DNA from: a virus
Virus record (IMG/VR): IMGVR_UViG_3300036979_000283
Span: 1-39,539 of that record
Reading direction: 5' to 3' (one strand)
Length of the DNA: 39,539 nt
Shown here piece after piece: positions 3,417 through 37,329 of this stretch; positions within the stretch are counted from its first letter, which is position 1; each line of letters opens with the position of its first letter. Made by a program: the position numbers and the translations under genes. The notes under the pieces were generated by a model. The model worked only from the letters and a program-made list of their open reading frames with translations, did not search any database and was not told the origin of the DNA.

Positions 3417-5302
3417 TTGATAGGAAACCAAAGGGTTCAAAGAAGATTGATCAACGTAAAGGTGTTGGCAGTGGTCAAACTACATCATGGTGGGCTGGTG
3501 ACAAAGACAACTGTCACGTAGACGTCCATGCAACCATCGCTTTCCTTAAGCGTCAGTGGTCATCGTTCTACAATGAGATTATACAGCACATTCGTCGCTA
3601 TGAGGACAAAGGCTACAGTATATTTAGTAGCAACCCATACGGAAAGATCATTGGTAACAAGACTCTTAATCTCAATGTTACAGCGAGCTGTGTAGATACG
3701 TTGGTGTCAAAGCTTACTAAGAACACGCCTACAGTGCAGTACTTAGCCAACTCTAGTGACTACGCTACACAACGCCGCGCCAAGGAGTTGCAGAAGTATA
3801 TACATGGACACTTCAACTACACCGGAGCCTACAAACTATGCGTTACAGCCCTCGCAGACGCTTGTAAAGCAGGAACAGGGTTCATACATGTAAAGCAGAA
3901 GAATGGCAAAGTATTCTATGAGATCGTGAAGCCATATGAACTCATTATCGACGTAGACGAAGCAGGCTTTGGTGAACCTATGGACATGCACATAGTAAAG
4001 CTTGTGAATCGTTTCCAGCTCATCTTGGACTACCCAGAACACCAAGAGGCGCTGTTAAAGACCTCTGAGTTCAACCCTGTGTACTCTGGAACTAAGCCTT
4101 ATGCTAACAATATGGTCCTTGTGACTGAGAGCTACAGCAAGTTTGCTAAGCGTCATGCTATCTGCGTTGACAACGCTACCCTCTGCGACGAGGACTGGGA
4201 CCTCGAGGACAAGTACGGTGAGTTCGCATTCCCCCTTGTGTCCATTAAGTTCAAAGAAGGTGATAGAAACTTCTTTGGCATAGGTCTTAGCGAAGAGCTC
4301 AAGGCTATACAGAATGAACTTAGTAGCCTTGTGCAAAGTGCTCAACGTGCCACTAGGTTACTTTGTGTACCAAAGATATTCTATAACCGCTCGTCAAACA
4401 TAGTTAAAGCACACTTTGACAACGATATCGGTGGTCTCATTGGCTACGATGGTAACCAAGTTCCTGTATCAATGCCACTAGGAGCTGTCCCTGTGGATCT
4501 ATATAATCAGATTGAGAACTTCTACAAGAAGGCCTATGAGATAGCAGGGTTATCCCAGTTATCGTCGTCTTCCCAGTTACCATCTGGGTTACAACAGGCT
4601 TCTGGGAAGGCGTTGGAGACGTTCTACCAGATAGAGAGCGATAGGTTTCAAACTATAGGTAAAGAGTACGAAGACCTCATCATCAAGCTTAACGATAAGA
4701 CCATTGACTTCATGAAGATGCTCAGTGATCAAGGGATTCTACGTACAAGTAAATACTATGACAAGGACAGTTGTAAGAACATTGATTGGTACGACGTTAA
4801 CATAGATCGTCAAGACTATGCTATTCAAAGCTTCCCTGTGTCACTTCTCCCATCGACACCTGAAGGAAAGTTCCAATTCGTTAACGATATGCTCCAAGTA
4901 GGTCTCCTTGACCCTGTGAGTGCTAAGAAGTTAATGCAAATGCCAGATACCGATGGTTACTTAGACCTACAGAATGCCCCTGTAGACTTCATTATGAGCC
5001 ATATTAGCGATATGCTCGAGGGTAACGAAGTCGAGCCTGACATCAATCAAGACTTTAATCTCAGCTTAGACCTAGCTACTAAGGCTTACCAGCTTTACTC
5101 TGTGAAGAAAGTTAAACCTGAGTGCCTTGTACTACTTGAGAACTATATTAATGCCGTGAATAGAATATCTATTGCCAAGCAAGCTCAACAACAGTTACTA
5201 TTGCAAAGTGCAATGGCAGCCCAACAGCAAGGAGGAGGCGTTAACAATGACGGACTTAGTAGCGGAGAACCAAGCGGATTCGCCACAAGTGGAATCCAAT
5301 GA
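3413..5302 (+). CDS. Portal protein
   Basis: 629 residues, the size of podoviral portals. The N-terminal part is DNA-channel and wing-like, followed by a long helical core. KIIGNKTLNLNVTASCVDTL near residue 80 and the central GIGLSEELKAIQNELSSLVQ near 287 resemble the P22/N4-type portal region where helices line the tunnel. The C-terminus is rich in Gln and Ala, typical of a crown or barrel helix. It forms the dodecameric ring at one vertex that couples terminase and tail. The start overlaps the upstream stop (ATGA) with GGAG before it. Order terL-portal-scaffold-coat supports the call. Confidence 0.88.
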   Translation: MIDRKPKGSKKIDQRKGVGSGQTTSWWAGDKDNCHVDVHATIAFLKRQWSSFYNEIIQHIRRYEDKGYSIFSSNPYGKIIGNKTLNLNVTASCVDTLVSKLTKNTPTVQYLANSSDYATQRRAKELQKYIHGHFNYTGAYKLCVTALADACKAGTGFIHVKQKNGKVFYEIVKPYELIIDVDEAGFGEPMDMHIVKLVNRFQLILDYPEHQEALLKTSEFNPVYSGTKPYANNMVLVTESYSKFAKRHAICVDNATLCDEDWDLEDKYGEFAFPLVSIKFKEGDRNFFGIGLSEELKAIQNELSSLVQSAQRATRLLCVPKIFYNRSSNIVKAHFDNDIGGLIGYDGNQVPVSMPLGAVPVDLYNQIENFYKKAYEIAGLSQLSSSSQLPSGLQQASGKALETFYQIESDRFQTIGKEYEDLIIKLNDKTIDFMKMLSDQGILRTSKYYDKDSCKNIDWYDVNIDRQDYAIQSFPVSLLPSTPEGKFQFVNDMLQVGLLDPVSAKKLMQMPDTDGYLDLQNAPVDFIMSHISDMLEGNEVEPDINQDFNLSLDLATKAYQLYSVKKVKPECLVLLENYINAVNRISIAKQAQQQLLLQSAMAAQQQGGGVNNDGLSSGEPSGFATSGIQ

Positions 5303-5996
5303 GGCGGCGGCGGCGGATAAACAGCTCGCTGAATCTAGGGATAAGGAGAAACAGAAGTATCAACGTGAACAGCAATTACGCCGTGAACGTGATGAACTTC
5401 GTGCTCAACTTGAAGAAGTAGAGAAGGTAAAGCAAACGATACTTAGAAACGGATGGGACATAGGGGCTCTTACATCGATTAAGAACTCTAACGTTGCTTC
5501 CGTTGATAACCCGTTAATTGATGAGTTACAAGCGCAGATTAAGAATCTACGTGAAGAGAACAGTCGACGTGATCAACAAATCTCTGACGACAGAGAGTTG
5601 AAGAACATTGCAGAGTATGTACGCAGTGACGAGAAGTACGAGTTGATACAAGCGTTTAAACTGGAAGGCGAAGTTCAATCATTGATTAAACACACTTTCA
5701 AAGAGAACGGCAAAATACTTAGTTACACTGAAGCAGCCGATTTGATTGAGAAGCACCTAGAAAAGCAAGAGAGAGAACATGCAGTGCTTCTTAAGAAAAC
5801 AAAGAAGGCAAAGTCCTTGTTTGAAGGAATCGATGTGGCCGATGTTAAAGTCGCCAAGAGTAAAGGCGTTGACGTGAAGGAAGTGGATAAAGTTATACAG
5901 TCATCAAAGAAAAACGATGACAAGCAAACTAAGTCTACTGTAGTTTCTAGTAAGAACGATTTAATTAACAGCTTGATTGCCAAGCACAAGAAGTAG
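5247..5996 (+). CDS. Capsid scaffolding protein
   Basis: 249 residues. ATG 5247 is preferred over earlier in-frame starts because GGAGG lies just upstream. Almost entirely charged helix and coiled coil: an EKQKYQREQQLRRERDELR run near residue 35, a Glu/Lys-rich centre and a basic C-terminal tail (SLIAKHKK) like those that bind coat protein in P22-type scaffolds. It sits between portal and coat, overlapping the portal end, the usual scaffold position. It would guide coat assembly and leave before or during packaging. Confidence 0.82.
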   Translation: MTDLVAENQADSPQVESNEAAAADKQLAESRDKEKQKYQREQQLRRERDELRAQLEEVEKVKQTILRNGWDIGALTSIKNSNVASVDNPLIDELQAQIKNLREENSRRDQQISDDRELKNIAEYVRSDEKYELIQAFKLEGEVQSLIKHTFKENGKILSYTEAADLIEKHLEKQEREHAVLLKKTKKAKSLFEGIDVADVKVAKSKGVDVKEVDKVIQSSKKNDDKQTKSTVVSSKNDLINSLIAKHKK

Positions 5997-15667: not shown

Positions 15668-15912
15668 CAAATCTCTTGCCGAAACGTCCTTCCAAACTTT
15701 CTGCCAATACAGATTCTTTAAAAAAAGTTGGACTTATTGAGGTATAGTAATTTTCAAGAGAACCAAGAGATTTCAGTGGTACCAACAACATCGACCAAGA
15801 GATTTTGCGTATTCGACTAATAGAGAACCAAGAGAAAGGTCAATTCACTACTCTTGCATACAAAAGTGCCTTGTTACCTTAGACCCAAAAAGACACTTTA
15901 TCAAGAGATTCC
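15668..15912. promoter_or_regulatory. Control region II: second array of CAAGAGATT boxes
   Basis: Noncoding, inside the structural arm. An inverted ATCTCTTG lies at 15671-15678, an A-tract (TTTAAAAAAAGTT) at about 15718-15730, then plus-strand CAAGAGA boxes begin at about 15755, 15764, 15796, 15829 and 15902. Order and the 9-bp close pair copy control region I, which faces the other way. A TATAGT hexamer at 15743-15748 could be a weak promoter -10. The rest up to 15975 shows no gene. Confidence 0.75.
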
Positions 15913-15975
15913 ATTTTTTAACAAATCTTTTCACAGTTTGCCAATACAACAAAGTTAATTTTGACACTACGTTCC

Positions 15976-16004
15976 TTTACTATGTATTCCATTAATGGCA
16001 TAGT
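15976..16004 (+). promoter_or_regulatory. Promoter for the AntA regulator
   Basis: TTTACT (15976-15981), 17-base spacer containing TGTATTCCA, and CATAGT (15999-16004). The spacer element and the -10 box are shared with the early promoters at 31.1 and 34.3 kb. Transcription would start at about 16011, at the GTGGGG hairpin. Confidence 0.65.
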
Positions 16005-16009
16005 AACTA

Positions 16010-16046
16010 TGTGGGGATGTTCCCACTGAAGCGAGGAGGCTTTATG
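16010..16046 (+). repeat. 37-bp leader repeat, copy 1 (5-prime hairpin plus Shine-Dalgarno)
   Basis: Identical to 37203-37239 on the minus strand. It starts at the predicted transcript start with GTGGG-GATGTT-CCCAC, a 5-bp hairpin, and continues to GCGAGGAGGC and the start codon. The sequence is also open from its own ATG (MFPLKRGGFM), so both leaders could begin translation earlier, but the ATG after GAGGAGG is the better start. Confidence 0.8.
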
Positions 16047-16685
16047 TTAGTTAAGATTAAGTTCGACAGTGTTCTCAAAGTAAACAGTGTTGACGCTAGG
16101 GAGTTGCACAAGGTTCTAGAATCAAGGCAGGATTTTTCCACTTGGTTGAAAACAAGGCTTGACGATACTATGGCAGAAGAAAACGTTGATTTCTCGCCTC
16201 CACAAAATAATGGAGGGGCCAATAAAGGAAAACTTTCCAATAAAATTGTTGTTAAACTATCACTCAACCTTGCCAAAGAAATAGCAATGCTCGAAAGAAA
16301 CGAAGTAGGTAAAAAGGTTCGTAAGTACTTTATTCAATGTGAAGAGGAACTTAGAAACCGCCGTAGCAAAGGAGATGAGCTTTCAGTGTTAAACAGTGTC
16401 TCTAGGGAGCTTTGCGCTGCTAAGAGACTAGAGCTCGAAGGGAAAACAGATAACTTAGGTTACTTCATAAATATTGCTAAGGTAGAAAACAAGTTGGCCT
16501 TTGGTTACCATGAAACCGATATGAGACGAAACCTTAGTCAAGCTCAGCAAGCAAGGCTTAACAGCGTCCTCAAAGATGTGGCTTTGCTCGCAGCGTTACG
16601 AGGTATAACGAATCCCACTGAGGTCTACAATGCTTTGATTTCTAAGTATCCCCTAGATGCTGACAAGGTTGCGTTGGTTGTCTAG
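16044..16685 (+). CDS. AntA-domain antirepressor-like protein
   Basis: 213 residues from ATG 16044 after GAGGAGG. Residues about 10-105 are an AntA/AntB domain: VNSVDARELHKVLESRQDFS, TWLKTRLDD, ENVDFSPP, then LSLNLAKEIAMLERNEVGKK and YFIQCEEEL. The C-terminal part (LELEGKTDNLGY, HETDMRRNL, RGITNPTEVYNALISKYPLD) is shared with the truncated Rha-like gene just downstream. Such proteins inactivate or replace repressors and drive lytic genes. It ends in TAG, followed in frame by a fragment of another regulator (DNLAAEFSAVNY). Pieces of this gene recur at 24.5-24.9 and 31.3 kb. Confidence 0.85.
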   Translation: MLVKIKFDSVLKVNSVDARELHKVLESRQDFSTWLKTRLDDTMAEENVDFSPPQNNGGANKGKLSNKIVVKLSLNLAKEIAMLERNEVGKKVRKYFIQCEEELRNRRSKGDELSVLNSVSRELCAAKRLELEGKTDNLGYFINIAKVENKLAFGYHETDMRRNLSQAQQARLNSVLKDVALLAALRGITNPTEVYNALISKYPLDADKVALVV

Positions 16686-16722
16686 GATAACTTGGCGGCT
16701 GAGTTTTCAGCCGTGAACTACC
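16686..16722 (+). other. Rearranged fragment with conserved hairpin
   Basis: GATAACTTGGCGGC onward encodes DNLAAEFSAVNY in the AntA frame after its TAG stop. The same segment lies inside the complete Rha gene at about 24.35 kb, but there it is downstream of the KIAEFTGKEH motif, whereas here it lies upstream. GGCUGA-GUUU-UCAGCC forms a hairpin that is also kept in the 24.35 kb copy. Confidence 0.7.
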
Positions 16723-17328
16723 ACAAGTTTGAAGATTGCAGAGTTTACAGGTAAGGAACACAAACATGTGTTAAGGGATGTAGAAAACCTTGTTAACAGT
16801 GGTAAACTAGATCGGTCCAATTTTGGGCTCTCTAACTACAAGACTTCACAAGGAAAATTAATGCCGATGTACATATTGGACGAAACCTTTACCACAGTAT
16901 TACTTATGGGTTTCACAGGCGAAAAGGCTCTAGATTGGAAACTAGCGTACACTAAGGCTTTCCAAGAAATGCGCAGTGAACTCAGTAAACCTAAAACTGT
17001 GAAACGTGTGAAGGGTGACGACGTGTCAGAGCTCAATCGTCTCATGCTTGATCTTGGGGTACAAAATAGAACTAAGTTGGAAGGTAAAACTGACCACAAA
17101 GGATACTGCATACAAACGGCTCGAATTGTAAACATACTATGCTTCGGTGAGCACAGAGAAGGTATACGTCAAGACCTGAATGTAGAGACTCAAGCTAGAC
17201 TAAATAAGATACTAGGTGACGTAGCTAGACTAAGTGTAAGAGGTATCACTAACCCTACACAGGTCTACAATGAACTTGAACCTAAGTATGGTTTGACCAA
17301 GTACATCTCCCGTTGTAGTATTGCGTAA
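16717..17328 (+). pseudogene. 5-prime-truncated Rha-family regulator
   Basis: The open frame reads TTTSLKIAEFTGKEHKHVLR and continues through PMYILDETFTTVLLMGFTGE, WKLAYTKAFQEMRSELSKP, which is the Rha (phage regulatory protein) domain. It then carries the same C-terminal domain as the AntA gene (LEGKTDHKGYCIQTARIVNI, RGITNPTQVYNELEPKYG). Full paralogs at 24.4 and 32.1 kb have about 20 more N-terminal residues (M-x3-VK-x-E...ATTSLK); here a TGA stands just before ACT ACC ACA AGT, and there is no ATG or Shine-Dalgarno. A TTG at 16729 is the only start. Broken, or possibly expressed by an unusual start. Confidence 0.7.
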
Positions 17329-23463: not shown

Positions 23464-23881
23464 ATAACCAGATATTACCTAAGGTCCTATATCCAGCAAC
23501 GATCTCCCAGTTTTCTAGGCTACTGGGATTTATTTGACTTAATGAGAAGCCAAGCAACCACGAATCATTCCTTTCCTTGATTACTTGTTCTGTGGAGCTA
23601 GTAGCGTAAATCTTTGTATCTACTCCAAGGTTAAACTTAGAAGTACTAAGATCCACTGTAGTCGTAGTGTCCCTAGTAATTACCTGACCACTAGGAGTAA
23701 GTACCTCCGAAACCTTGACCGTCTTAACGTTGTTACTCTTAGCTTCAACGTATACTTTCTGAACTTTCTCAACCACTTCAGTCTTTGTAACATACTTCAC
23801 CTCGGTAATTGGTTTCATAGTTAACTTTGCCACAGTGAATCCTATGGCACAAGTTACTACAGGTATTACATATGCTTTCAC
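23387..23881 (-). CDS. Membrane-anchored envelope protein of unknown function
   Basis: 164 residues. GTG 23881 follows AAGGAG. An N-terminal hydrophobic anchor (YVIPVVTCAIGFTVA) precedes a Lys/Glu/Val-rich stalk (TEVKYVTKTEVVEKVQKVYV) and a C-terminal beta-patterned region ending in FSVGLLLTL, all probably periplasmic. It closes the early arm next to Rha and lysozyme. A spanin-like lysis part is possible but the usual proline-rich Rz1 partner is not seen. Confidence 0.6.
   Translation of the reverse strand: MKAYVIPVVTCAIGFTVAKLTMKPITEVKYVTKTEVVEKVQKVYVEAKSNNVKTVKVSEVLTPSGQVITRDTTTTVDLSTSKFNLGVDTKIYATSSTEQVIKERNDSWLLGFSLSQINPSSLENWEIVAGYRTLGNIWLFSSVNLGHLVDKPISAFSVGLLLTL
23505..23535 (+). terminator. 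Candidate terminator of the plus-strand arm
   Basis: TCCCAG (23505-23510), 12-base loop, CTGGGA (23523-23528), then TTTATTT. It lies about 40 bases past the last plus-strand stop, inside the convergent minus-strand gene. Confidence 0.45.
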
Positions 23882-24489
23882 GTTAACTCCTTTGTCCTAA
23901 TTAGCTCACCGATTTCCTTTGGTTTACTCAGACCATCGGCAATGGCTAAGCCTGCCTGAGTTAACTTCTTCCTAAGTACATATGCTTCGTCCTCAGTCAT
24001 ATGTTGCCGTATATCTTTTTCATGGTGGCCAAAGGTTGCAATGTTTACTTCTCGAGCTAAGTTAGAGTAATCGAAGTGACAAGGTTTACGATGTTTAATT
24101 TGTCTCTCAAGTAACCCGTTAACTAAGCGGTTGAGGTCACTAGGTTCATCACCCTTCACACGTTTCACAGTTTTAGGCTTATTGAGTTCACTTCGCATTT
24201 CTTGGAAAGCCTTTGCGTACTCTAATTTCCACTTAATAGCTTCAGTTCCATTAAAGCCCATCAACAATACTGTGGTAAATAATTCATCCAAAATATACAT
24301 TGGATAACTCTTACCTCTGTTCTTATACTCCCCCTTAACAAAGTTGGCGGCGGAAAACTCCGCCGCCAAGTTATCTATGGCCTCCAATACATCTTTGTGC
24401 TCCTTACCTGTAAACTCTGCAATCTTCAAACTAGTGGTCGCTGCCACTTTATTACTTCCCACTTCTTCGATTTTAACTAAGATACACAT
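23878..24489 (-). CDS. Rha-family regulatory protein (complete copy)
   Basis: 203 residues from ATG 24489 after GGGAGGAGGG. The Rha domain runs about 20-115: ATTSLKIAEFTGKEHKDVLE, SYPMYILDELFTTVLLMGFN, WKLEYAKAFQEMRSELNKP. The C-terminal domain (CHFDYSNLAREVNIATFGHH then EKDIRQHMTEDEAY) is related in form to that of the 16.0 kb AntA and 16.7 kb Rha genes. A perfect 11-bp hairpin (loop GTTT) lies in its DNA at 24344-24369. Rha proteins affect the lytic/lysogenic balance in temperate phages. Confidence 0.85.
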   Translation of the reverse strand: MCILVKIEEVGSNKVAATTSLKIAEFTGKEHKDVLEAIDNLAAEFSAANFVKGEYKNRGKSYPMYILDELFTTVLLMGFNGTEAIKWKLEYAKAFQEMRSELNKPKTVKRVKGDEPSDLNRLVNGLLERQIKHRKPCHFDYSNLAREVNIATFGHHEKDIRQHMTEDEAYVLRKKLTQAGLAIADGLSKPKEIGELIRTKELT

Positions 24490-24908
24490 TGTTAACCCTC
24501 CTCCCTCGCTATGATAGAAATAACTCCCGTTCTTTGGCCAAGTTGAGTTATAGTTTAACAACAATTTTATTGGAAAGTTTTCCTTTATTGTCCGCTCCAT
24601 TATTTTGTGGAGGCGAGAAATCAACGTTTTCTTCTGCCATAGTATCGTCAAGCCTTGTGCTTTGCTACCCCACCAACATTTTCCGATGAGAGTTGTTCAG
24701 TGTTCTTCGACTCCCCAAAACTGGGGACTCGATAAAATCTACGTTTTATTCTGCCATCGTATCGTCAAGCCTTGTGCTTTGCTACTCCACCAACATTTTC
24801 AGACGAAAGTTGTTCAGTGTTCTTCATTGCTTTTTTTTCAGTAATGAAGAAATCTACATTACTTTCTACCATTGTATCGTCAATTCTGGATTTTACCCTC
24901 CTCCCTCA
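24490..24908 (-). pseudogene. Array of AntA gene fragments between lysozyme and Rha
   Basis: No intact gene. The minus strand holds about 130 bases nearly identical to AntA (16152-16280), then two more divergent units, each with the TTGACGATAC-x-ATGG core, spaced about 117 and 115 bases (cores near 24650, 24767, 24880). Units read LDDTMAEENVDF, LDDTMAE-stop-NVDF and IDDTMVESNVDF, followed by differing sequence (one shared piece reads NTEQLSSENVGGVAKHKA). Reading frames are broken by stops and shifts. The block is bounded by 42-bp direct repeats (24495-24536 and 24895-24936). Confidence 0.8.
24495..24536. repeat. 42-bp direct repeat, copy 1
   Basis: Matches 24895-24936 with one difference, exactly 400 bases apart. 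On the minus strand it carries the last codons of lysozyme (KERELFLS-TAG) plus the GGGAGGAGGG that serves as the Rha ribosome-binding site. Lysozyme and Rha were probably adjacent before the AntA debris entered. Confidence 0.85.
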
Positions 24909-24936
24909 CTATGATAGAAATAACTCCCGTTCTTTG
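24895..24936. repeat. 42-bp direct repeat, copy 2
   Basis: The copy that forms the true 3-prime end of the lysozyme gene. The other copy stands beside Rha. The join between AntA debris and copy 1 falls at a shared CAAAGAA, indicating microhomology recombination. Confidence 0.85.
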
Positions 24937-29701: not shown

Positions 29702-30373
29702 CTATACGTTGCAAAATAGTTTTACAAAAGACCTGTATACCTCTGGATGTTTGACTCTGTGCTCTTCTATTAGTTCTTCTATTAAATTAGGCCACTCAGT
29801 TTTTAAATGTTGCTGACACCCTATCCTCATGTGATTATCAGTTATTGTTATAATGTGCTCTTCAAATACAAAATTATTACAAAAATCAGAGACTATAACG
29901 TCACCAGAGACATCCGCGAGACCGGAGACCATACCTTTAACACAGACTGTAGAGTTACCACAGACCGTAGATTCACCACAGATCATAGAGTAACCAGAGG
30001 TCATAGCGTTACCAGAGACCTTAGCTTTACCAGATATCTTAGTGTAACCAGAGATCCTAGCGTTACCAGAGACCGTAGAGTTTTCACAGACCCTAGAGAA
30101 ACCAGAGATCCTAGAGTTATCAGAGACCTTAGAGTTATCACAGACCCTAGAGTTATCACAGACCCTAGAGTTATCACAGACCCTAGAGTTATCAGAGACC
30201 TTAGCGTCACCATAGACCATAGAGTTATCATAGACCATACAGTCACCATCATGACTTAGGTTTTTTTCACTTTCAATGAACCCACCAATATAGTTGTCAT
30301 GCAATCTCCTTACCCTATATAAAGTTTTGCCATCAACTGATTTTGTTTCAGTGGTTAGCTCATATTTTCTCAT
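29702..30373 (-). CDS. Left-handed beta-helix repeat protein
   Basis: 223 residues. About 20 tandem six-residue units of the form V-[SC]-[GD]-N-[ST]-x run from residue about 45 to 165 (SRVCDNSRVCDNSRVCDNSK). Hexapeptide repeats form a left-handed beta-helix, as in acyltransferases; similar repeat proteins occur in many phages with no known role. The flanking ends (N-terminal 40 and C-terminal 55 residues) are non-repetitive. The 18-bp DNA units are nearly identical in the middle, so unit number may vary by slippage. Confidence 0.8.
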   Translation of the reverse strand: MRKYELTTETKSVDGKTLYRVRRLHDNYIGGFIESEKNLSHDGDCMVYDNSMVYGDAKVSDNSRVCDNSRVCDNSRVCDNSKVSDNSRISGFSRVCENSTVSGNARISGYTKISGKAKVSGNAMTSGYSMICGESTVCGNSTVCVKGMVSGLADVSGDVIVSDFCNNFVFEEHIITITDNHMRIGCQQHLKTEWPNLIEELIEEHRVKHPEVYRSFVKLFCNV

Positions 30374-30453: not shown

Positions 30454-30661
30454 TTATGTACTTCGATTCTATGGCCCGTTGTATTGCTGTTAACCTGTCA
30501 GCCATGTTGACAAGGACAGCTTCTTTGTCGATAAGACTACCGTACTCATCGAGCATGTACTGTATTTCATCAATGTAGTGCTGCTTGCAACGTTGCAAAG
30601 TACCTACGTTAAATGACTCGTAATAGAGTTGTAACCTAGCAATCTTATCGACGTAGCTCAT
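30446..30661 (-). CDS. Small helical early protein
   Basis: 71 residues, overlapping the upstream gene start (ATGA). Predominantly helical (DKIARLQLYYESFNVGTLQR). GGGGAGG precedes it. No family recognised. Confidence 0.6.
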   Translation of the reverse strand: MSYVDKIARLQLYYESFNVGTLQRCKQHYIDEIQYMLDEYGSLIDKEAVLVNMADRLTAIQRAIESKYIND

Positions 30662-30900
30662 TTGACTAACCTCCCCAAGTATTCATCGAATACAAGATCA
30701 AATTTTTGTTTAAGTACTCTAGTTAAGAACAAGTAAGTATAATCTCCACGACCTTCAGATAGCGTATTAACATGTACATCAAGCAACCCTGTTAACACTT
30801 CCATTTCGTTCAGCAGTTTCTCTTTTGCATAAGACTGAATGTCTAAGTAATACTCACTTAGTTCCGCAGACTCTTCATCTAACCATTGGTCATTCTTCAT
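30658..30900 (-). CDS. Small acidic early protein, first gene after leader A
   Basis: 80 residues, helical and acidic (WLDEESAELSEYYLDIQSYA). Start ATG 30900 follows GGGAGGAGA. It is the first gene of the transcript beginning at 31.09 kb, behind a structured leader of about 185 nt. Function unknown. Confidence 0.65.
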   Translation of the reverse strand: MKNDQWLDEESAELSEYYLDIQSYAKEKLLNEMEVLTGLLDVHVNTLSEGRGDYTYLFLTRVLKQKFDLVFDEYLGRLVK

Positions 30901-30969
30901 ATATCTCCTCCCAGAGAAAACGGTGCTTACACAATGTAAACAGCGTTTCCAGTGAAAGCGATTTTCACT

Positions 30970-31085
30970 TACCCAGTACTCTCGGGCTCAGGTCAACACC
31001 TGTATAGTCGGTGTCCCATTTACTTGCTAAGCTACTGTTCGCTGCTGCTTAGCCCTCTCGGTGCTCTGGGTTCTATCGTTCCCAT
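30970..31085 (-). ncRNA. Structured leader RNA A (paralog of leader B)
   Basis: Begins at the predicted transcript start. Stem II GCUAAGC/GCUUAGC (31053-31047 with 31032-31026) encloses a 14-nt loop containing GCAGCGAAC. Stem III ACACC/GGUGU (31014-31010 with 31000-30996) has a 9-nt loop. UGACCUGA and a GC-rich stem IV follow. Leader B (34194-34315) has the same order with different stem bases that still pair. Downstream, AGUGAAA-AUCGC-UUUCACU makes a further hairpin before the first gene. Confidence 0.7.
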
Positions 31086-31091
31086 ATAATT

Positions 31092-31120
31092 ACTATGCCA
31101 TACGTGGAATACAAAGTCAA
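31092..31120 (-). promoter_or_regulatory. Early promoter upstream of leader A
   Basis: Minus strand TTGACT (31120-31115), 17-base spacer with TTGTATTCCAC, CATAGT (31097-31092). Almost the same as the 34.3 kb promoter. It lies in the 3-prime end of the 31117-31305 gene. Confidence 0.75.
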
Positions 31121-31305
31121 GCGATGGGGTCAACTTTTTTCTCTGTGAACCAATCAGCGTCTACTTTGACAGCTTTACCGCTGTTATCAAGGACAATTAC
31201 TTCGTCATACTGTTGCCAGATTACAAAGTACTCATCACCATGTGTCAAATTAGAATCTGCATATCGCCAGTAGTCGAACACAACAACTTTACCTAATAAA
31301 CTCAT
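31117..31305 (-). CDS. Small protein of unknown function
   Basis: 62 residues, strand-rich SH3-like pattern (GKVVVFDYWRYADSN, YFVIWQQYDEVIVLDNSGKA). ATG 31305 follows TAAGGAGG, which derives from a fragment of the AntA gene lying just upstream. Its last codons overlap the promoter of leader A. Confidence 0.6.
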   Translation of the reverse strand: MSLLGKVVVFDYWRYADSNLTHGDEYFVIWQQYDEVIVLDNSGKAVKVDADWFTEKKVDPIA

Positions 31306-31309
31306 AAAA

Positions 31310-31364
31310 CCTCCTTACCTACATCGTTTCTCTCGAGCATTACTATTTCTTTGGCAAGGTTCAA
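31310..31364 (-). pseudogene. AntA gene fragment serving as a 5-prime leader
   Basis: About 55 bases, roughly 90 percent identical to AntA bases 16263-16317 (encoding LNLAKEIAMLERNEVGK). Starts TTGAACCTTGCCAAAG and ends at the GTAGGTAAGGAGG that acts as ribosome-binding site for the 62-residue gene. Confidence 0.75.
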
Positions 31365-31415
31365 TGTTACTATATAGTCAATACGAATTACACAGTTCTT
31401 CTTTTAACCTAGTAG

Positions 31416-32138
31416 CTAAGCTCCTAGAATCTCCTCACGTATGCTTGTAGGCCACTCGATACTTTGTCTCATCTTACCGCCGCCTTCCTGCGATACTATT
31501 TTACCACCGGCTCCAATGCCCTTTGGCGTCAGTGCCCAGTTACCCGCGACATCCTTTGCAATGAAACCCTCGTCTAGTAGAATTTGGTTTCCTTTGCGCC
31601 CTGAAATCCCTGTACCTTGTAATATATCGGATATACACATAGTCTTAGCTTCAACCTCGAACTTAATCTCCATAAGGGCTAGAACATCGTCGCCTGTCTT
31701 CTTCCTTGTGGCATGGTTTGCATGGATAGCCGCTTGTTCAGCTTTGAGACCAAGAACCTCAGCGATACTGTGGAAATCCTTGAAAACGTCCCCAGTGGTT
31801 AACGAAGCTGTCTTAGGCTTGCTAAGTTCACTACGCATTTCTTGGAAAGCCTCAGTGTATGCAATCTTCCAATCAAGAGCCTTTTCGCCTGTCATTCCCA
31901 TCAAAAGAATTGAAGTAAATTTTTCATCAAGAATGTATGACTTTCTTTTTTCTCCTTTTTTATCTTTGTAATCGACGGGCTGAAAATTCAGCTCGTTAAA
32001 TTTACCGCTTGGAATAAGGTTTTCTATGCTTTGTAAAACATTCTTGTGTAGTAACCCTGTAAACTCTGCAATCTTCAAACTTGTTGTAGCGTTAACATTG
32101 TTACCAGCAATCGACTCTAACTTAACTAACTGTGACAT
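31416..32138 (-). CDS. Rha-family regulatory protein with a distinct C-terminal domain
   Basis: 240 residues from ATG 32138 (AGGAGG upstream). Rha domain at about 1-105: VNATTSLKIAEFTGLLHKNV, SYILDEKFTSILLMGMTGEK, WKIAYTEAFQEMRSELSKP. The C-terminal half differs from the other paralogs: VLALMEIKFEVEAKTM, a predicted winged-helix or KilA-C-like part (ILQGTGISGRKGNQILLDEG, WALTPKGIGAGGKIV). It is the promoter-distal gene of the unit beginning at 34.3 kb, and is probably an antirepressor or early switch. Confidence 0.85.
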   Translation of the reverse strand: MSQLVKLESIAGNNVNATTSLKIAEFTGLLHKNVLQSIENLIPSGKFNELNFQPVDYKDKKGEKRKSYILDEKFTSILLMGMTGEKALDWKIAYTEAFQEMRSELSKPKTASLTTGDVFKDFHSIAEVLGLKAEQAAIHANHATRKKTGDDVLALMEIKFEVEAKTMCISDILQGTGISGRKGNQILLDEGFIAKDVAGNWALTPKGIGAGGKIVSQEGGGKMRQSIEWPTSIREEILGA

Positions 32139-32206
32139 AAACATCCTCCTTGTTTGTGAAATAATCAATTTAATTATTGTGCATCTTTTAACATGTGTTT
32201 AACACT

Positions 32207-32518
32207 TTAGACCTTGTGTGAGAATAAAACACCTAGAGTTAAGCGGAAGTGGTTACGTAGTTCATTGAGCACATTGCGCCTAGAATACGTTGACTCGTTG
32301 CACATCCATGCTTTGTACTGAATCTTACGATTCACTGCACTTAGCTCCCTCTCAACTTCGTTCAGCAAGTGTATTTCGCAGGTTAGGAGGTAATCATCAG
32401 CCAATTTGTTAGCCACGGATCCTCTGTGCTTAGATACAAATTCTGAATAAGCTTTCTTAGTCTCTGCTGGTAGTTGGTTGTACACTGACTCATATCCCAA
32501 AGTTTTGAATTCAATCAT
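32207..32518 (-). CDS. Small protein of unknown function
   Basis: 103 residues; ATG 32518 is preferred because GGGAG lies upstream. Helical (TKKAYSEFVSKHRGSVANKL, ECEL-like acidic runs). Its start overlaps the end of the upstream 58-residue gene. No family recognised. Confidence 0.6.
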   Translation of the reverse strand: MIEFKTLGYESVYNQLPAETKKAYSEFVSKHRGSVANKLADDYLLTCEIHLLNEVERELSAVNRKIQYKAWMCNESTYSRRNVLNELRNHFRLTLGVLFSHKV

Positions 32519-32687
32519 TGCTAACATCTCCCTTCGCTATAACTTCAACTATGTTTTCAATTTGTATAGTTTGTGGTCTACGTTTTCTCTGTATATCGTC
32601 ACCAAATACCAAGCCACCAACTATATGGTCAACTAAGTACATTGCACCATTTGCGTCTATTACAAAGTCACCTCTTTCAATTTTCAT
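32511..32687 (-). CDS. Small protein (58 residues)
   Basis: ATG 32687 to TGA 32511: MKIERGDFVIDANGAMYLVD then GDDIQRKRRPQTIQIENIVE. It is coupled by ATGA to the upstream gene and overlaps the next start, so it fills an otherwise empty stretch exactly. Strand-rich SH3-like small protein; function unknown. Confidence 0.7.
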   Translation of the reverse strand: MKIERGDFVIDANGAMYLVDHIVGGLVFGDDIQRKRRPQTIQIENIVEVIAKGDVSND

Positions 32688-32932
32688 AGTGTCACCTCAT
32701 TACTTACTTTAGTGTTGAACTCGTGTAACTCGTCCATTGTATGACGAAGCTTACTTGCATCTAGGAAAGGTTGTACCAAGCGTTTGTAAACGAATACTTG
32801 GAGTATTAGGTTAGGAGTACGCAGCTCACTGAGTGGTACACCGTTTGCGTAAATCACGTCTCCCACTTTGAAATCAACTACCAAGTGGTCTAGGTACTCT
32901 CTCTTACTAATTTCAACGTTTGCTAATCTCAT
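32684..32932 (-). CDS. Small early protein of unknown function
   Basis: 82 residues, AAGGA before ATG 32932. VDFKVGDVIYANGVPLSELR near the centre, helical second half (KLRHTMDELHEFNTKV). Overlaps both neighbours by 4 bases (ATGA). No family recognised. Confidence 0.6.
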   Translation of the reverse strand: MRLANVEISKREYLDHLVVDFKVGDVIYANGVPLSELRTPNLILQVFVYKRLVQPFLDASKLRHTMDELHEFNTKVSNEVTL

Positions 32933-33396
32933 TTGTATATCCTTACAAAATTGTCAACTAAGTTATTATATGAAGTCTCACCGTACACTCTGATCAACCC
33001 TGAAGTCATTAAGTCCCAACCGTTACTATGCTTAAGCCCATAAGCGCAGTGCCCTGCCTCGTGTATTAACAGGGATTTGCGCTCCCAGTGATTCAATCGA
33101 TTCCAACCTTCTCTGTTTATTGTAATGTGGTTACCTTGGTCTCGTTGTGCTAAGTTAAACTCTAGGTCACTGTCGCCATGTTTACAGGAGCCGTAGTCAC
33201 CTGTGAACTTATCATCGCTGAACTCGTAGCTATCCACGTTAGTCCAAATCTTTGTAGTATTGAACCCACGGCTATCTAAGTCAGACGATGCCTCGACGAG
33301 TACTTTGTGTAACTCAGGGTCTTTATTCTGTTTTCCACGGTGAATACCACATGAACTTACCACTCCTAACAAGAACACGCTGATTAATATTTTCAT
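32929..33396 (-). CDS. Predicted lipoprotein metalloprotease (HExxH)
   Basis: 155 residues. ILISVFLLGVVSSCG is a lipoprotein signal with lipobox V-S-S-C (lipidated Cys at residue 16). LLIHEAGHCAYGLKH near residue 111 is a zinc protease motif HExxH with a third His seven residues on, followed by GWDLMTSG, which resembles the methionine turn of metzincins. It would be exported to the periplasm or outer membrane. It lies among early genes of the 34.3 kb unit. A cell-envelope protease in a phage is unusual; target unknown. Confidence 0.75.
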   Translation of the reverse strand: MKILISVFLLGVVSSCGIHRGKQNKDPELHKVLVEASSDLDSRGFNTTKIWTNVDSYEFSDDKFTGDYGSCKHGDSDLEFNLAQRDQGNHITINREGWNRLNHWERKSLLIHEAGHCAYGLKHSNGWDLMTSGLIRVYGETSYNNLVDNFVRIYK

Positions 33397-33535
33397 CTTT
33401 GAAGCCTTTCTCTTTGCTTTTTAAGTACTTAGCATATGCGGCCAGTTCCGCGTTTCTCTTTAGCTCACCATGTAATTGCATTGCGTCAATGCTTTCTTTT
33501 CTTAACAACGCCCAAGCTTCTTTTTCATTGCACAT
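33323..33535 (-). CDS. Small protein overlapping the lipoprotein gene
   Basis: 70 residues from ATG 33535 (GGAGGA upstream). Lysine/glutamate-rich helix (ESIDAMQLHGELKRNAELAA). Its 3-prime end overlaps the first 74 bases of the lipoprotein gene in another frame. No family recognised. Confidence 0.55.
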   Translation of the reverse strand: MCNEKEAWALLRKESIDAMQLHGELKRNAELAAYAKYLKSKEKGFKDENINQRVLVRSGKFMWYSPWKTE

Positions 33536-33740
33536 AGTCTGTGTCCTCCACTGCATAGTGGGCTAAATCCTTAACAGACCATATGATTAGCCCAAGTGTT
33601 TCCATGTCCCCAACCCATTCATTAAACATTTCATTCAAGTCAGCCTTACTTACTTCGTTTTCAATACCCTTAGCTCCGACGTCTACTATGTAATTGTGGA
33701 ACATTAGTTCTAAGTCTTCTTCGTATAGTAGTTTTGGCAT
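33525..33740 (-). CDS. Small acidic early protein
   Basis: 71 residues, acidic and helical (NEVSKADLNEMFNEWVGDME). Start ATG 33740 after GGAAGAG. Overlaps the next gene by a few bases. Function unknown. Confidence 0.6.
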   Translation of the reverse strand: MPKLLYEEDLELMFHNYIVDVGAKGIENEVSKADLNEMFNEWVGDMETLGLIIWSVKDLAHYAVEDTDYVQ

Positions 33741-33741
33741 A

Positions 33742-33906
33742 TTAACTCTTCCATGTTACAAGGTTAGAGTCTATGCTTACTGCTCCTTTACCTTTAACAA
33801 GTATTGTAAGCTTAGTGTCTCCTTCAAACATATGGTCACAGACTTTGTAGTCTTTGCCGTCTATTTTAACAGTGTCTTGTGGTTCGAGAACGATTGGTTT
33901 AGTCAT
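33742..33906 (-). CDS. Small protein (54 residues)
   Basis: ATG 33906 to TAA 33742: MTKPIVLEPQDTVKIDGKDY then MFEGDTKLTILVKGKGAVSI. It overlaps the upstream stop (ATGA), has a compact beta pattern, and precisely fills the interval. Function unknown. Confidence 0.7.
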   Translation of the reverse strand: MTKPIVLEPQDTVKIDGKDYKVCDHMFEGDTKLTILVKGKGAVSIDSNLVTWKS

Positions 33907-34040
33907 TTCTTATTCTCCTTATTCTTCTTTGCAACGTAGATTCTATACAACGTGTACTCTTCCTCGGTCATAGCTATAATGTCATCAAGTGTAGCTTTAT
34001 CCCACCTAGCATTACGCTCACGTCTCTCCTTTCTAGTCAT
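33903..34040 (-). CDS. Small basic early protein, first gene after leader B
   Basis: 45 residues from ATG 34040 (TAGGAGATA upstream): MTRKERRERNARWDKATLDD, acidic middle, then a lysine-rich end. First gene of the 34.3 kb transcript, behind a leader of about 275 nt. Probably binds nucleic acid or a host protein, by charge only. Confidence 0.6.
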   Translation of the reverse strand: MTRKERRERNARWDKATLDDIIAMTEEEYTLYRIYVAKKNKENKK

Positions 34041-34166
34041 AGTCCTATCTCCTAATGTTAAAGTGCAATGTGACGAAGATAACTTAGCATTTCGACTCAA
34101 TGTGTTAATGTTTAACGTGGTGAAACCGCACCACAGAATCTACTTTACTTTGTTTTCTTAGTCATC

Positions 34167-34190
34167 GTTGCAATCTAATTAGATTGTAAC
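34167..34190. promoter_or_regulatory. 24-bp near-perfect palindrome in leader B region
   Basis: Core CAATCTAATTAGATTG is a perfect 16-bp dyad, extended to 24 bp with one mismatch. It could be an operator for a dimeric regulator or form a hairpin in the RNA between leader B and the first gene. Confidence 0.55.
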
Positions 34191-34193
34191 ATT

Positions 34194-34315
34194 GGCCTAA
34201 CATATAGTAGGCTTCAGGTCAAACCCTCTGTAGTGGGGTTCCCTTGTACTCCTAGAGGCACCGTTCGCTGCTTCCCCTAGACTCTCGTTGCTGTGGAGAG
34301 GTATCCCTCTTCCTT
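34194..34315 (-). ncRNA. Structured leader RNA B (paralog of leader A)
   Basis: Begins at the predicted start of the 34.3 kb transcript. AGAGG-GAUA-CCUCU hairpin; stem II CUAGGGG/CCUCUAG (34280-34274 with 34258-34252) with a 15-nt loop holding GCAGCGAAC; stem III AACCC/GGGUU (34240-34236 with 34226-34222) with a 9-nt loop; UGACCUGAAGCC; stem IV GCCUA/UAGGC. Loops and joins are conserved with leader A while stem bases change in pairs. Confidence 0.7.
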
Positions 34316-34321
34316 ATTTAT

Positions 34322-34350
34322 ATAATGCCACGAGTGGAATACAAAGTCAA
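34322..34350 (-). promoter_or_regulatory. Early promoter upstream of leader B
   Basis: TTGACT (34350-34345), 17-base spacer with TTGTATTCCAC, CATTAT (34327-34322). It restarts transcription right after the polymerase terminator. Confidence 0.75.
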
Positions 34351-34374
34351 GCACCGAGTCAAAGTATTTCTACC

Positions 34375-34405
34375 TAAAAGAAAAACCCAGTTGTTACACT
34401 GGGTT
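34375..34405 (-). terminator. Intrinsic terminator after DNA polymerase
   Basis: Minus strand AACCCAG, loop TGTAACAA, CTGGGTT, then TTTCTTTT. The stem begins inside the last codons of the polymerase, whose TAA lies in the loop. Confidence 0.85.
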
Positions 34406-35014: not shown

Positions 35015-35746
35015 CGCATTGTCCACGGTTTCCCGTGGTGCTGACTATTCCTTAGGTGTATCAATTACTCCAACAACTTTGCCATTGGAGTCTCGGATAA
35101 ACTTGCGTTGTACCCGTGAGAAGTAATCCTTCGCTGCCTTGCGAGGATCACCGAAGTTGTTTTCTAGCTTGTGTTCCCGTGAGTGACAGCTTCTACAAAT
35201 AACAATTAGGTTTTCTAGTCTATTGTCGCTACGGTCTTCATTTATGTGGTGAACACATAGTAATCTAAACTCTTCTTCACCACACTTAGCGCAAATGCTC
35301 TCTTTGCCTCTTAGTTTACCGTACGAACCAATACCATTCTTCCAGTTGTTATTCTTTGACCCTGATTGACAACCTTTCTCTCTAACACCGTAACCCTTGC
35401 GTCTTCTGTAAGCTTCTTGAGCTTTGTTAGATACTTCTTTTGACCTAACTAAAGAACAATTGTAACAGTACTTTTGAGCTGGGTTCTGTCTTTCTACAAC
35501 AGAGCCGCATACACCACAGATAACTACACTACAAAACTTCTTCTGGTTTCCCATGATAACCTCTCCCCTTTTAAGCCCTTTCGGGATTCCTAGTAGTAGA
35601 AGGACTTTCTACCCTATGAGTCGATACACTGCCCTTCCGATTCCTCAGAAGTATAGCTCGAGATTGCCATACCAATCAAGCGATTAGTTTAGGGTTCCTC
35701 GAATTGAGGGAGTTTTGATTTACGTGTTGAGCCCAAGTTACACTTA
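35015..35746 (-). other. Group I intron in the DNA polymerase gene
   Basis: 732 nt. P1 pairs exon end GUGUUGGGU (35755-35747) with GCUCAACAC (35732-35724): 9 pairs with the conserved U-G at the 5-prime splice site. P10 pairs exon 2 CAAGUU with intron AACUUG just before P1. The last intron base is G (35015). CCACGG-GAAA-CCGUGG near the 3-prime end is a P9-like GNRA hairpin, and GACUCAUAGG...GUAGAAAGUCC at about 35620-35600 looks like the P7/S region. An HNH gene is nested inside. Confidence 0.9.
35045..35554 (-). CDS. Intron-encoded HNH homing endonuclease
   Basis: 169 residues, GGGGAGAGG before ATG 35554. N-terminal zinc finger (CGVCGSVVE and CYNCS), basic linker, then HNH core ICAKCGEEEFRLLCVHHINE, NRLENLIVICRSCHSREH with zinc cysteines. 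It would cut intronless alleles and spread the intron. Phage group I introns with HNH enzymes in DNA polymerase genes are known, e.g. I-HmuI in SPO1. Confidence 0.92.
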   Translation of the reverse strand: MGNQKKFCSVVICGVCGSVVERQNPAQKYCYNCSLVRSKEVSNKAQEAYRRRKGYGVREKGCQSGSKNNNWKNGIGSYGKLRGKESICAKCGEEEFRLLCVHHINEDRSDNRLENLIVICRSCHSREHKLENNFGDPRKAAKDYFSRVQRKFIRDSNGKVVGVIDTPKE

Positions 35747-37205: not shown

Positions 37206-37239
37206 AAAGCCTCCTCGCTTCAGTGGGAACATCCCCACA
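37203..37239 (-). repeat. 37-bp leader repeat, copy 2
   Basis: Identical to 16010-16046. The 5-prime hairpin GTGGG-GATGTT-CCCAC and the Shine-Dalgarno GAGGAGG are both included. Confidence 0.85.
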
Positions 37240-37244
37240 AAATA

Positions 37245-37273
37245 ACTATGCCATGCATTGATAATTAAATCAA
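37245..37273 (-). promoter_or_regulatory. Promoter for the small membrane protein and DNA polymerase
   Basis: TTGATT (37273-37268), 17-base spacer ending ATGG, CATAGT (37250-37245). Same -10 box and flanking ATGG as the 16.0 and 31.1 kb promoters, without the TGTATTCCA spacer element. Confidence 0.65.
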
Positions 37274-37329
37274 GGACACGGCGTAATAATTTGTTGACGA
37301 TGTGTTCTCTGTGAACGTACGGTTAGAAT

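Follow-up and report, generated by a model that had tools for sequence, protein, structure and literature searches.

To our knowledge, very few phage RNAs located at the 5′ ends of early transcripts act without a protein partner, and the put RNA of phage HK022 is the textbook case. Antitermination by put needs only RNA polymerase and its β′ zinc-binding domain. The stabilizing elements of ompA-like messages are hairpins at the extreme 5′ end of the mRNA. HK022 put is a two-stem-loop RNA with an A3-G7/C15-U19 duplex (PMC9378689). In Bacillus, the eps-associated RNA (EAR) is situated between eps genes two and three and causes antitermination at intrinsic terminators farther along the operon (PMC7858274).

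The window analyzed here is the whole of a 39,539-base virus record with a 105-base direct end repeat, in which two structured leaders, A and B, follow early promoters. The initial annotation drew an analogy to HK022 put. The analogy holds for the placement, namely a phage RNA directly behind early promoters, present as two related structured copies and presumed to act in cis, and in this placement the two paralogues resemble putL and putR (PMC9378689). However, put spans ~70 nt and two stem-loops, whereas the principal domain of the leaders, domain I, spans ~115–121 nt and contains stems II–IV and a pseudoknot; neither the A3-G7/C15-U19 duplex nor the two-stem-loop fold of put is found in it. 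Covariance model R1, built from five distinct sequences of the leaders, has no match at E ≤ 10 in the whole HK022 genome, in which putL was located. By the tests run, the leaders are not put members; by analogy, they may work like put.

Other described systems share some features with the leaders. As proposed for EAR, a structured cis-acting RNA would serve a whole operon, but the present RNA belongs to phages, begins at +1 and precedes operons without clear terminators; a search of operons A and B for distal intrinsic terminators of the kind that EAR overrides returned no convincing example. Leaders of the riboswitch type, such as SAM-II, likewise combine a long structured 5′ untranslated region with a pseudoknot and invariant unpaired letters. 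A conserved aptamer-like fold is borne out by covariation, but a link to the genes of one pathway is not seen, the first genes being unrelated. Compared with ompA-like hairpins the leaders are far more elaborate, with conserved sequence and a pseudoknot. The initial annotation had pointed to no named family with the stem II loop, and a search of Rfam 15 gave no family match, with none to E 5 over positions 30890–34360. Nor did any Rfam family match the whole HK022 genome; put is thus outside the coverage of Rfam, and the missing match does not exclude it.

Location and architecture of the leaders

The minus strand is the reading strand over 23–39 kb of the window, and the two leaders lie on it where the initial annotation had placed them, behind near-identical promoters that are sigma70-like by sequence (Table 1). 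Domain I is predicted to begin at the transcription start set by the promoter sequence. The 17-mer TTGACTTTGTATTCCAC occurs exactly twice in the window, and allowing up to three mismatches yields three matches compared with 0.15 expected. Leaders A and B are 72% identical in DNA sequence, and R1 detects no window copy beyond them. At promoters C and D, all that follows is the short hairpin GUGGGGAUGUUCCCAC, a Shine-Dalgarno sequence and ATG. The 5′ untranslated region is modular, comprising in order a 5′ hairpin, domain I, hairpin V and, in the B type, a covarying rod before the Shine-Dalgarno sequence.

Table 1 Features of leaders A and B and of related promoters in the window.
Feature	Position	Strand	Basis or remark
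Early promoter A	31092-31120	-	TTGACT-17-CATAGT, TG before -10, sigma70-like
Leader A, domain I, whole	30971-31085	-	R1, 96.5 bits
Leader A, 5′-terminal hairpin I	31067-31084	-	Loop GAUA; 6/7 pairs change on both sides (homologue alignment)
Leader A, mini-hairpin CC-GAGA-GG, GNRA-type loop	31054-31061	-	RNAalifold; C-G to A-U covariation
Leader A, stem II GCUAAGC/GCUUAGC, AGCGAAC-containing loop	31026-31053	-	7/7 pairs covary
Leader A, pseudoknot strand AGU in linker	31022-31024	-	Alignment pair count
Leader A, stem III, GA bulge, 9-nt loop	30991-31017	-	Alignment pair count
Leader A, stem III loop ACU, pseudoknot partner	31006-31008	-	Alignment pair count
Leader A, stem IV	30971-30987	-	Alignment pair count
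Leader A, hairpin V	30952-30968	-	Conserved in L029 A
Leader A, short rod hairpin, before Shine-Dalgarno of first gene	30916-30950	-	Conserved in L029 A
First gene behind leader A, 80 aa, no assigned function	30658-30900	-	
Early promoter B	34322-34350	-	TTGACT-17-CATTAT, TG before -10, sigma70-like
Leader B, domain I, whole	34195-34315	-	R1, 119.4 bits
Leader B, hairpin I, loop GAUA	34295-34312	-	Alignment pair count
Leader B, mini-hairpin AC-GAGA-GU	34281-34288	-	RNAalifold and alignment
Leader B, stem II CUAGGGG/CCUCUAG	34252-34280	-	Alignment pair count
Leader B, pseudoknot, stem III loop ACU with linker AGU	34232-34234 with 34248-34250	-	
Leader B, stem III	34217-34243	-	Alignment pair count
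Leader B, stem IV	34195-34212	-	Alignment pair count
Leader B, hairpin V	34171-34186	-	
Leader B, rod domain, ends just before Shine-Dalgarno	34066-34170	-	Outer tip stem, 5/5 pairs covary
Leader B, three-way junction at rod tip	34093-34140	-	
First gene behind leader B, 45 aa, no assigned function	33903-34040	-	
Intrinsic terminator of DNA polymerase operon, just upstream of promoter B	34384-34405	-	
Promoter C, same type; simple 5′ hairpin and Shine-Dalgarno, no domain I	37235-37275	-	
Promoter D, same type; simple 5′ hairpin and Shine-Dalgarno, no domain I	15975-16015	+	

Elsewhere in the window, the gene for the family-A DNA polymerase is interrupted, at a site of high conservation, by ~0.7 kb (35026-35744, minus strand) that includes an HNH endonuclease open reading frame. 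The gene is unsplit in the related contigs L029 and L032, and the insert is probably an intron, with a weak group I match (14.1 bits compared with a gathering threshold of 50). Repeated CAAGAGAT motifs (CCAAGAGAT) occur in the divergent control region (1-460) and before promoter D (15716-15930) and are perhaps operator or origin repeats. Four Rha/AntA-type antirepressor genes are found at 16011-17328 (plus strand), 23878-24651 and 31416-32168 (both minus strand), some of them inverted near-copies with up to 96% identity over 129 nt, and repeats of 45 and 91 bases (24492-24936, 92–96% identical) adjoin a decayed antirepressor copy. At 29851-30282 (minus strand), 18-base tandem repeats encode a DNSRVC-type repeat protein, and the opposite strand also contains a long open frame.

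Structure of domain I

Domain I comprises hairpin I, a mini-hairpin with a GAGA loop, stem II, the pseudoknotted stem III and stem IV. The fold was evaluated with an alignment (A6) of seven distinct sequences, in which 34 pairs in seven helices were counted and the letters of the first five rows were checked against their source. In this small alignment, made by hand with the stems in mind and containing some closely related sequences, 94.9% of the cells pair and 24 of the 34 pairs change on both sides. The covariation score of 0.685 compares with 0.213 in shuffles, none of 500 shuffles reaching it, and pairing falls to 28–50% in controls with slid partners (28–53% when a further count is included). 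Changes on both sides affect all seven pairs of stem II and four of the five pairs of stem IV. Stem II reads GUUUAAC/GUUAAAC in G006 and GUCUAAG/CUUAGAC in G005, two copies found by the model and outside its training set. The covariation beyond chance that the initial annotation had proposed from A and B is thus upheld, and the homologues, examined for loss of pairing, retain it in seven distinct sequences. Judged from the sequences, A and B are confirmed as members of an RNA family with a selected fold.

The 7-bp stem II, the 9-nt loop of stem III, the intervening UGACCUGA and stem IV read as first described, and several details are revised. The letters CGAGAG form the mini-hairpin (C/A)C-GAGA-G(G/U), which RNAalifold recovered independently. 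Stem III retains its 9-nt loop but in fact has 8 bp with a GA bulge and is part of a pseudoknot. The linker between stems II and III, AGU (CGU in L029 A and AGC in G005), pairs over 3 bp with ACU (ACG and GCU, respectively) in the stem III loop, two of the three pairs covarying; as read from the alignment, the linker and the loop make an H-type pseudoknot. The segment UGACCUGA is present in A and B but is shortened to GACC in some relatives. The loop of stem II extends beyond GCAGCGAAC, with GCGA as its sole invariant part. A helix of 2 bp within this loop is tentative, since its pairing is imperfect in G005 and G006. The invariant unpaired letters suggest a binding partner.

Occurrence in other phages

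With the C-terminal part of the polymerase as query, five related contigs were found. An exonuclease query gave no relatives, a primase query recovered the 36-kb relative alone, and the polymerase query found no relative among genome contigs. The covariance-model search proposed in the initial annotation yielded six further copies on five other viral contigs. Leader B is kept in G001 (L029), G002 (L030) and G004 (L032), leader A is kept in G001, and R1 scores on the known copies range from 96 to 119 bits. The 36-kb contig G005, a distant relative whose polymerase is 57% identical, carries a copy with 75 bits and E of about 1e-16. A scan for conserved motifs followed by R1 revealed a copy with 88 bits and E of about 2e-19 on the 158.9-kb contig G006. 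A sigma70-like promoter directly precedes the domain I (class I) RNA in the window, L029, L032, G005 and G006 (at 5334).

The window and G006 have few DNA regions in common, namely Rha-type antirepressors (68–82%) and the leader, which has 80% identity across 134 bases and in which 39 bases around stem III are identical. At the protein level they have a few tail, peptidase-like, lysozyme and HNH proteins in common. This sharing suggests a shared host or gene exchange. The nearest isolate polymerase is that of a Silvanigrella phage (26%) for the group of the window and that of Myxococcus phage Mx1 (29%) for G006; the RNA was found in neither phage. One antirepressor is common to the window and the 159-kb phage G006 at 78% DNA identity. 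G006 (L071–L078) also encodes a DnaE-type polymerase, a T5-like DNA transfer protein, a GroEL-like chaperonin and a nicotinamide phosphoribosyltransferase.

Phage and plasmid collections contained no recognizable copy, and 379 genomes of one bacterial phylum, which may not be that of the host, gave no match. A loose pattern scan returned 25 contigs, which is at chance level, and the covariance model finds the RNA in none of them; it also rejected ten pattern matches. A 29-nt match in a Roseobacter phage was taken as an AT-rich chance match. Homology between the small genes that precede promoter A and the class I leader of the 159-kb phage was not supported.

Rod domain and exchangeable leader classes

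The rod of B-type leaders ends in a three-way junction. Across seven sequences, including G005 and two G006 leaders, all five pairs of its outer stem covary, and the overall covariation score of the rod is reached by none of 500 shuffles. A-type leaders possess a different, shorter rod. A SAM_alpha match in the rod of L031, considered as a possible SAM-II relationship, scored 11.9 bits compared with a gathering threshold of 36 (E of 4.1) and was attributed to chance.

At its site B, L031 (G003) retains the rod together with the promoter and 5′ end but has unrelated sequence in place of domain I. The 159-kb phage has eight early promoters of one type between 3.8 and 16.4 kb, near-identical ones preceding class I at 5334, class II at 5924, 7041 and 8546, and a third class at 3808; the remaining promoters are followed by little beyond a 5′ hairpin or by the rod alone. 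The class II motif AGUUA(U/C)UUGACAA occurs at exactly four places in the 382 kb examined (overlapping loci included), once in L031 and three times in G006, each 67–72 bases after the start of the -35 element, and the slot for class I in L031 is therefore occupied by a class II leader. Class II homology is seen for the first 50 bases, and no reliable structure emerged from the class II alignment past its 5′ part. The class III leader (L071:3808-4150) is an unrelated structured leader whose promoter is identical to that of the class I leader. At L071:16414-16560, a promoter and a short 5′ part are followed by the three-way-junction rod alone, and thus the rod can occur independently of domains I, II and III.

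By BLASTP, the first genes behind the class I copies are mutually unrelated, and the first gene that follows class II in L031 is 94.5% identical to the one that follows class I in L032. With different genes behind one class and one gene behind two classes, the leader is therefore gene-independent and exchangeable, and its function is exerted per transcript rather than per gene. A gene-specific riboswitch is disfavoured, the leader being tied to no single gene.

Possible functions of the leaders

Our preferred reading, which we nonetheless consider somewhat likelier wrong than right, is that the leaders, a new RNA domain at the predicted 5′ end of early mRNAs, act in cis via a host factor, with the elongating polymerase as the likeliest target. 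Domain I would fold on leaving RNA polymerase, its invariant loops would contact the host factor, and it would act in cis for whichever operon follows. The effect on polymerase might be put- or EAR-like anti-pausing, or long early operons made up of tiny genes might be protected from Rho; both the identity of the partner and the effect are conjectural. A cis-acting element of the nascent transcript, as first proposed, is inferred here as well, and the placement at +1, the unrelated genes and the exchangeable classes fit it. That promoters C and D in this genome lack domain I is counted as support, as is its occurrence in phages with few other genes in common. The put-like model is favoured because of the +1 position, the paralogues at two early promoters and a fold more elaborate than end protection would need. 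However, no strong coding-strand intrinsic terminators were found in the operons behind leaders A and B, and only weak candidates in those of the 159-kb phage, which leaves antitermination without an evident purpose; the lack of homology to put also counts against the model. In the 159-kb phage, leaders recur every 0.6–1.5 kb and may serve only one to four genes each. The unclear terminators and this close spacing weaken the put-like model, which is placed narrowly ahead of an mRNA shield.

As a shield, the folded 5′ end would block decay that depends on the 5′ end, by RppH/RNase E or RNase J, or a defence that cuts RNA, and early polycistronic messages would survive. The location at the extreme 5′ end, the presence of at least a 5′ hairpin at every window promoter of this type, the gene independence and the filling of one slot by different folds (classes I, II and III), as a shield allows, are all in keeping with this, but a plain 5′ hairpin like those behind promoters C and D ought then to be enough, and the conserved loops, the GNRA-type mini-hairpin and the pseudoknot are left unexplained; taken as a whole, the explanation is on the unlikely side. 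A regulated switch, in which domain I binds a small molecule or host factor as an aptamer or protein-binding site and the rod serves as a common output module governing translation of the first gene, is less likely still. Its architecture would be aptamer-like, with a pseudoknot and invariant unpaired letters, exchangeable upstream domains sit on a conserved downstream rod, and the rod ends right before the Shine-Dalgarno sequence. Nonetheless, the first genes are unrelated, the rod of leader A differs and is shorter, and pairing of hairpin V with the Shine-Dalgarno sequence is notable in G006_5334 alone (8 of 500 shuffles) and not in nine others; with one leader of ten, no general switch of this kind was found.

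Several copies per genome and horizontal spread among phages would also suit a trans-acting RNA, processed from the leader into a stable form that titrates a host protein or a defence RNA-binding factor. This is quite improbable, for no terminator follows domain I, and every copy runs on into an mRNA that has a Shine-Dalgarno sequence. The similarity of A and B could in principle reflect a recent duplication of the promoter region with pairing by chance, given their common promoters and DNA identity, but we accord this next to no likelihood: stem II is fully different between the copies yet paired, the covariation is beyond all shuffles, and the RNA also occurs in distant phages, the homologues having already refuted such an origin.

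Beyond the role of domain I itself, phages sharing a host may trade structurally unrelated, interchangeable leader modules (I, II and III) that all serve one function early in infection, for instance altering the host polymerase without a protein or guarding against a defence that targets RNA. Each module would be inserted behind a standard early promoter and ahead of a shared structured domain. Taken as a whole, this reading is possible but rather more likely false than true.

The leaders constitute a covariation-backed, uncatalogued family with several copies per genome that crosses largely unrelated phages, and as such a testable set of elements, with the swap in L031 providing a natural experiment on leader function. 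If the leaders are put-like, RNA-only antitermination would be greatly widened; if they are a shield or a sensor, phages would have a novel form of early defence or regulation.
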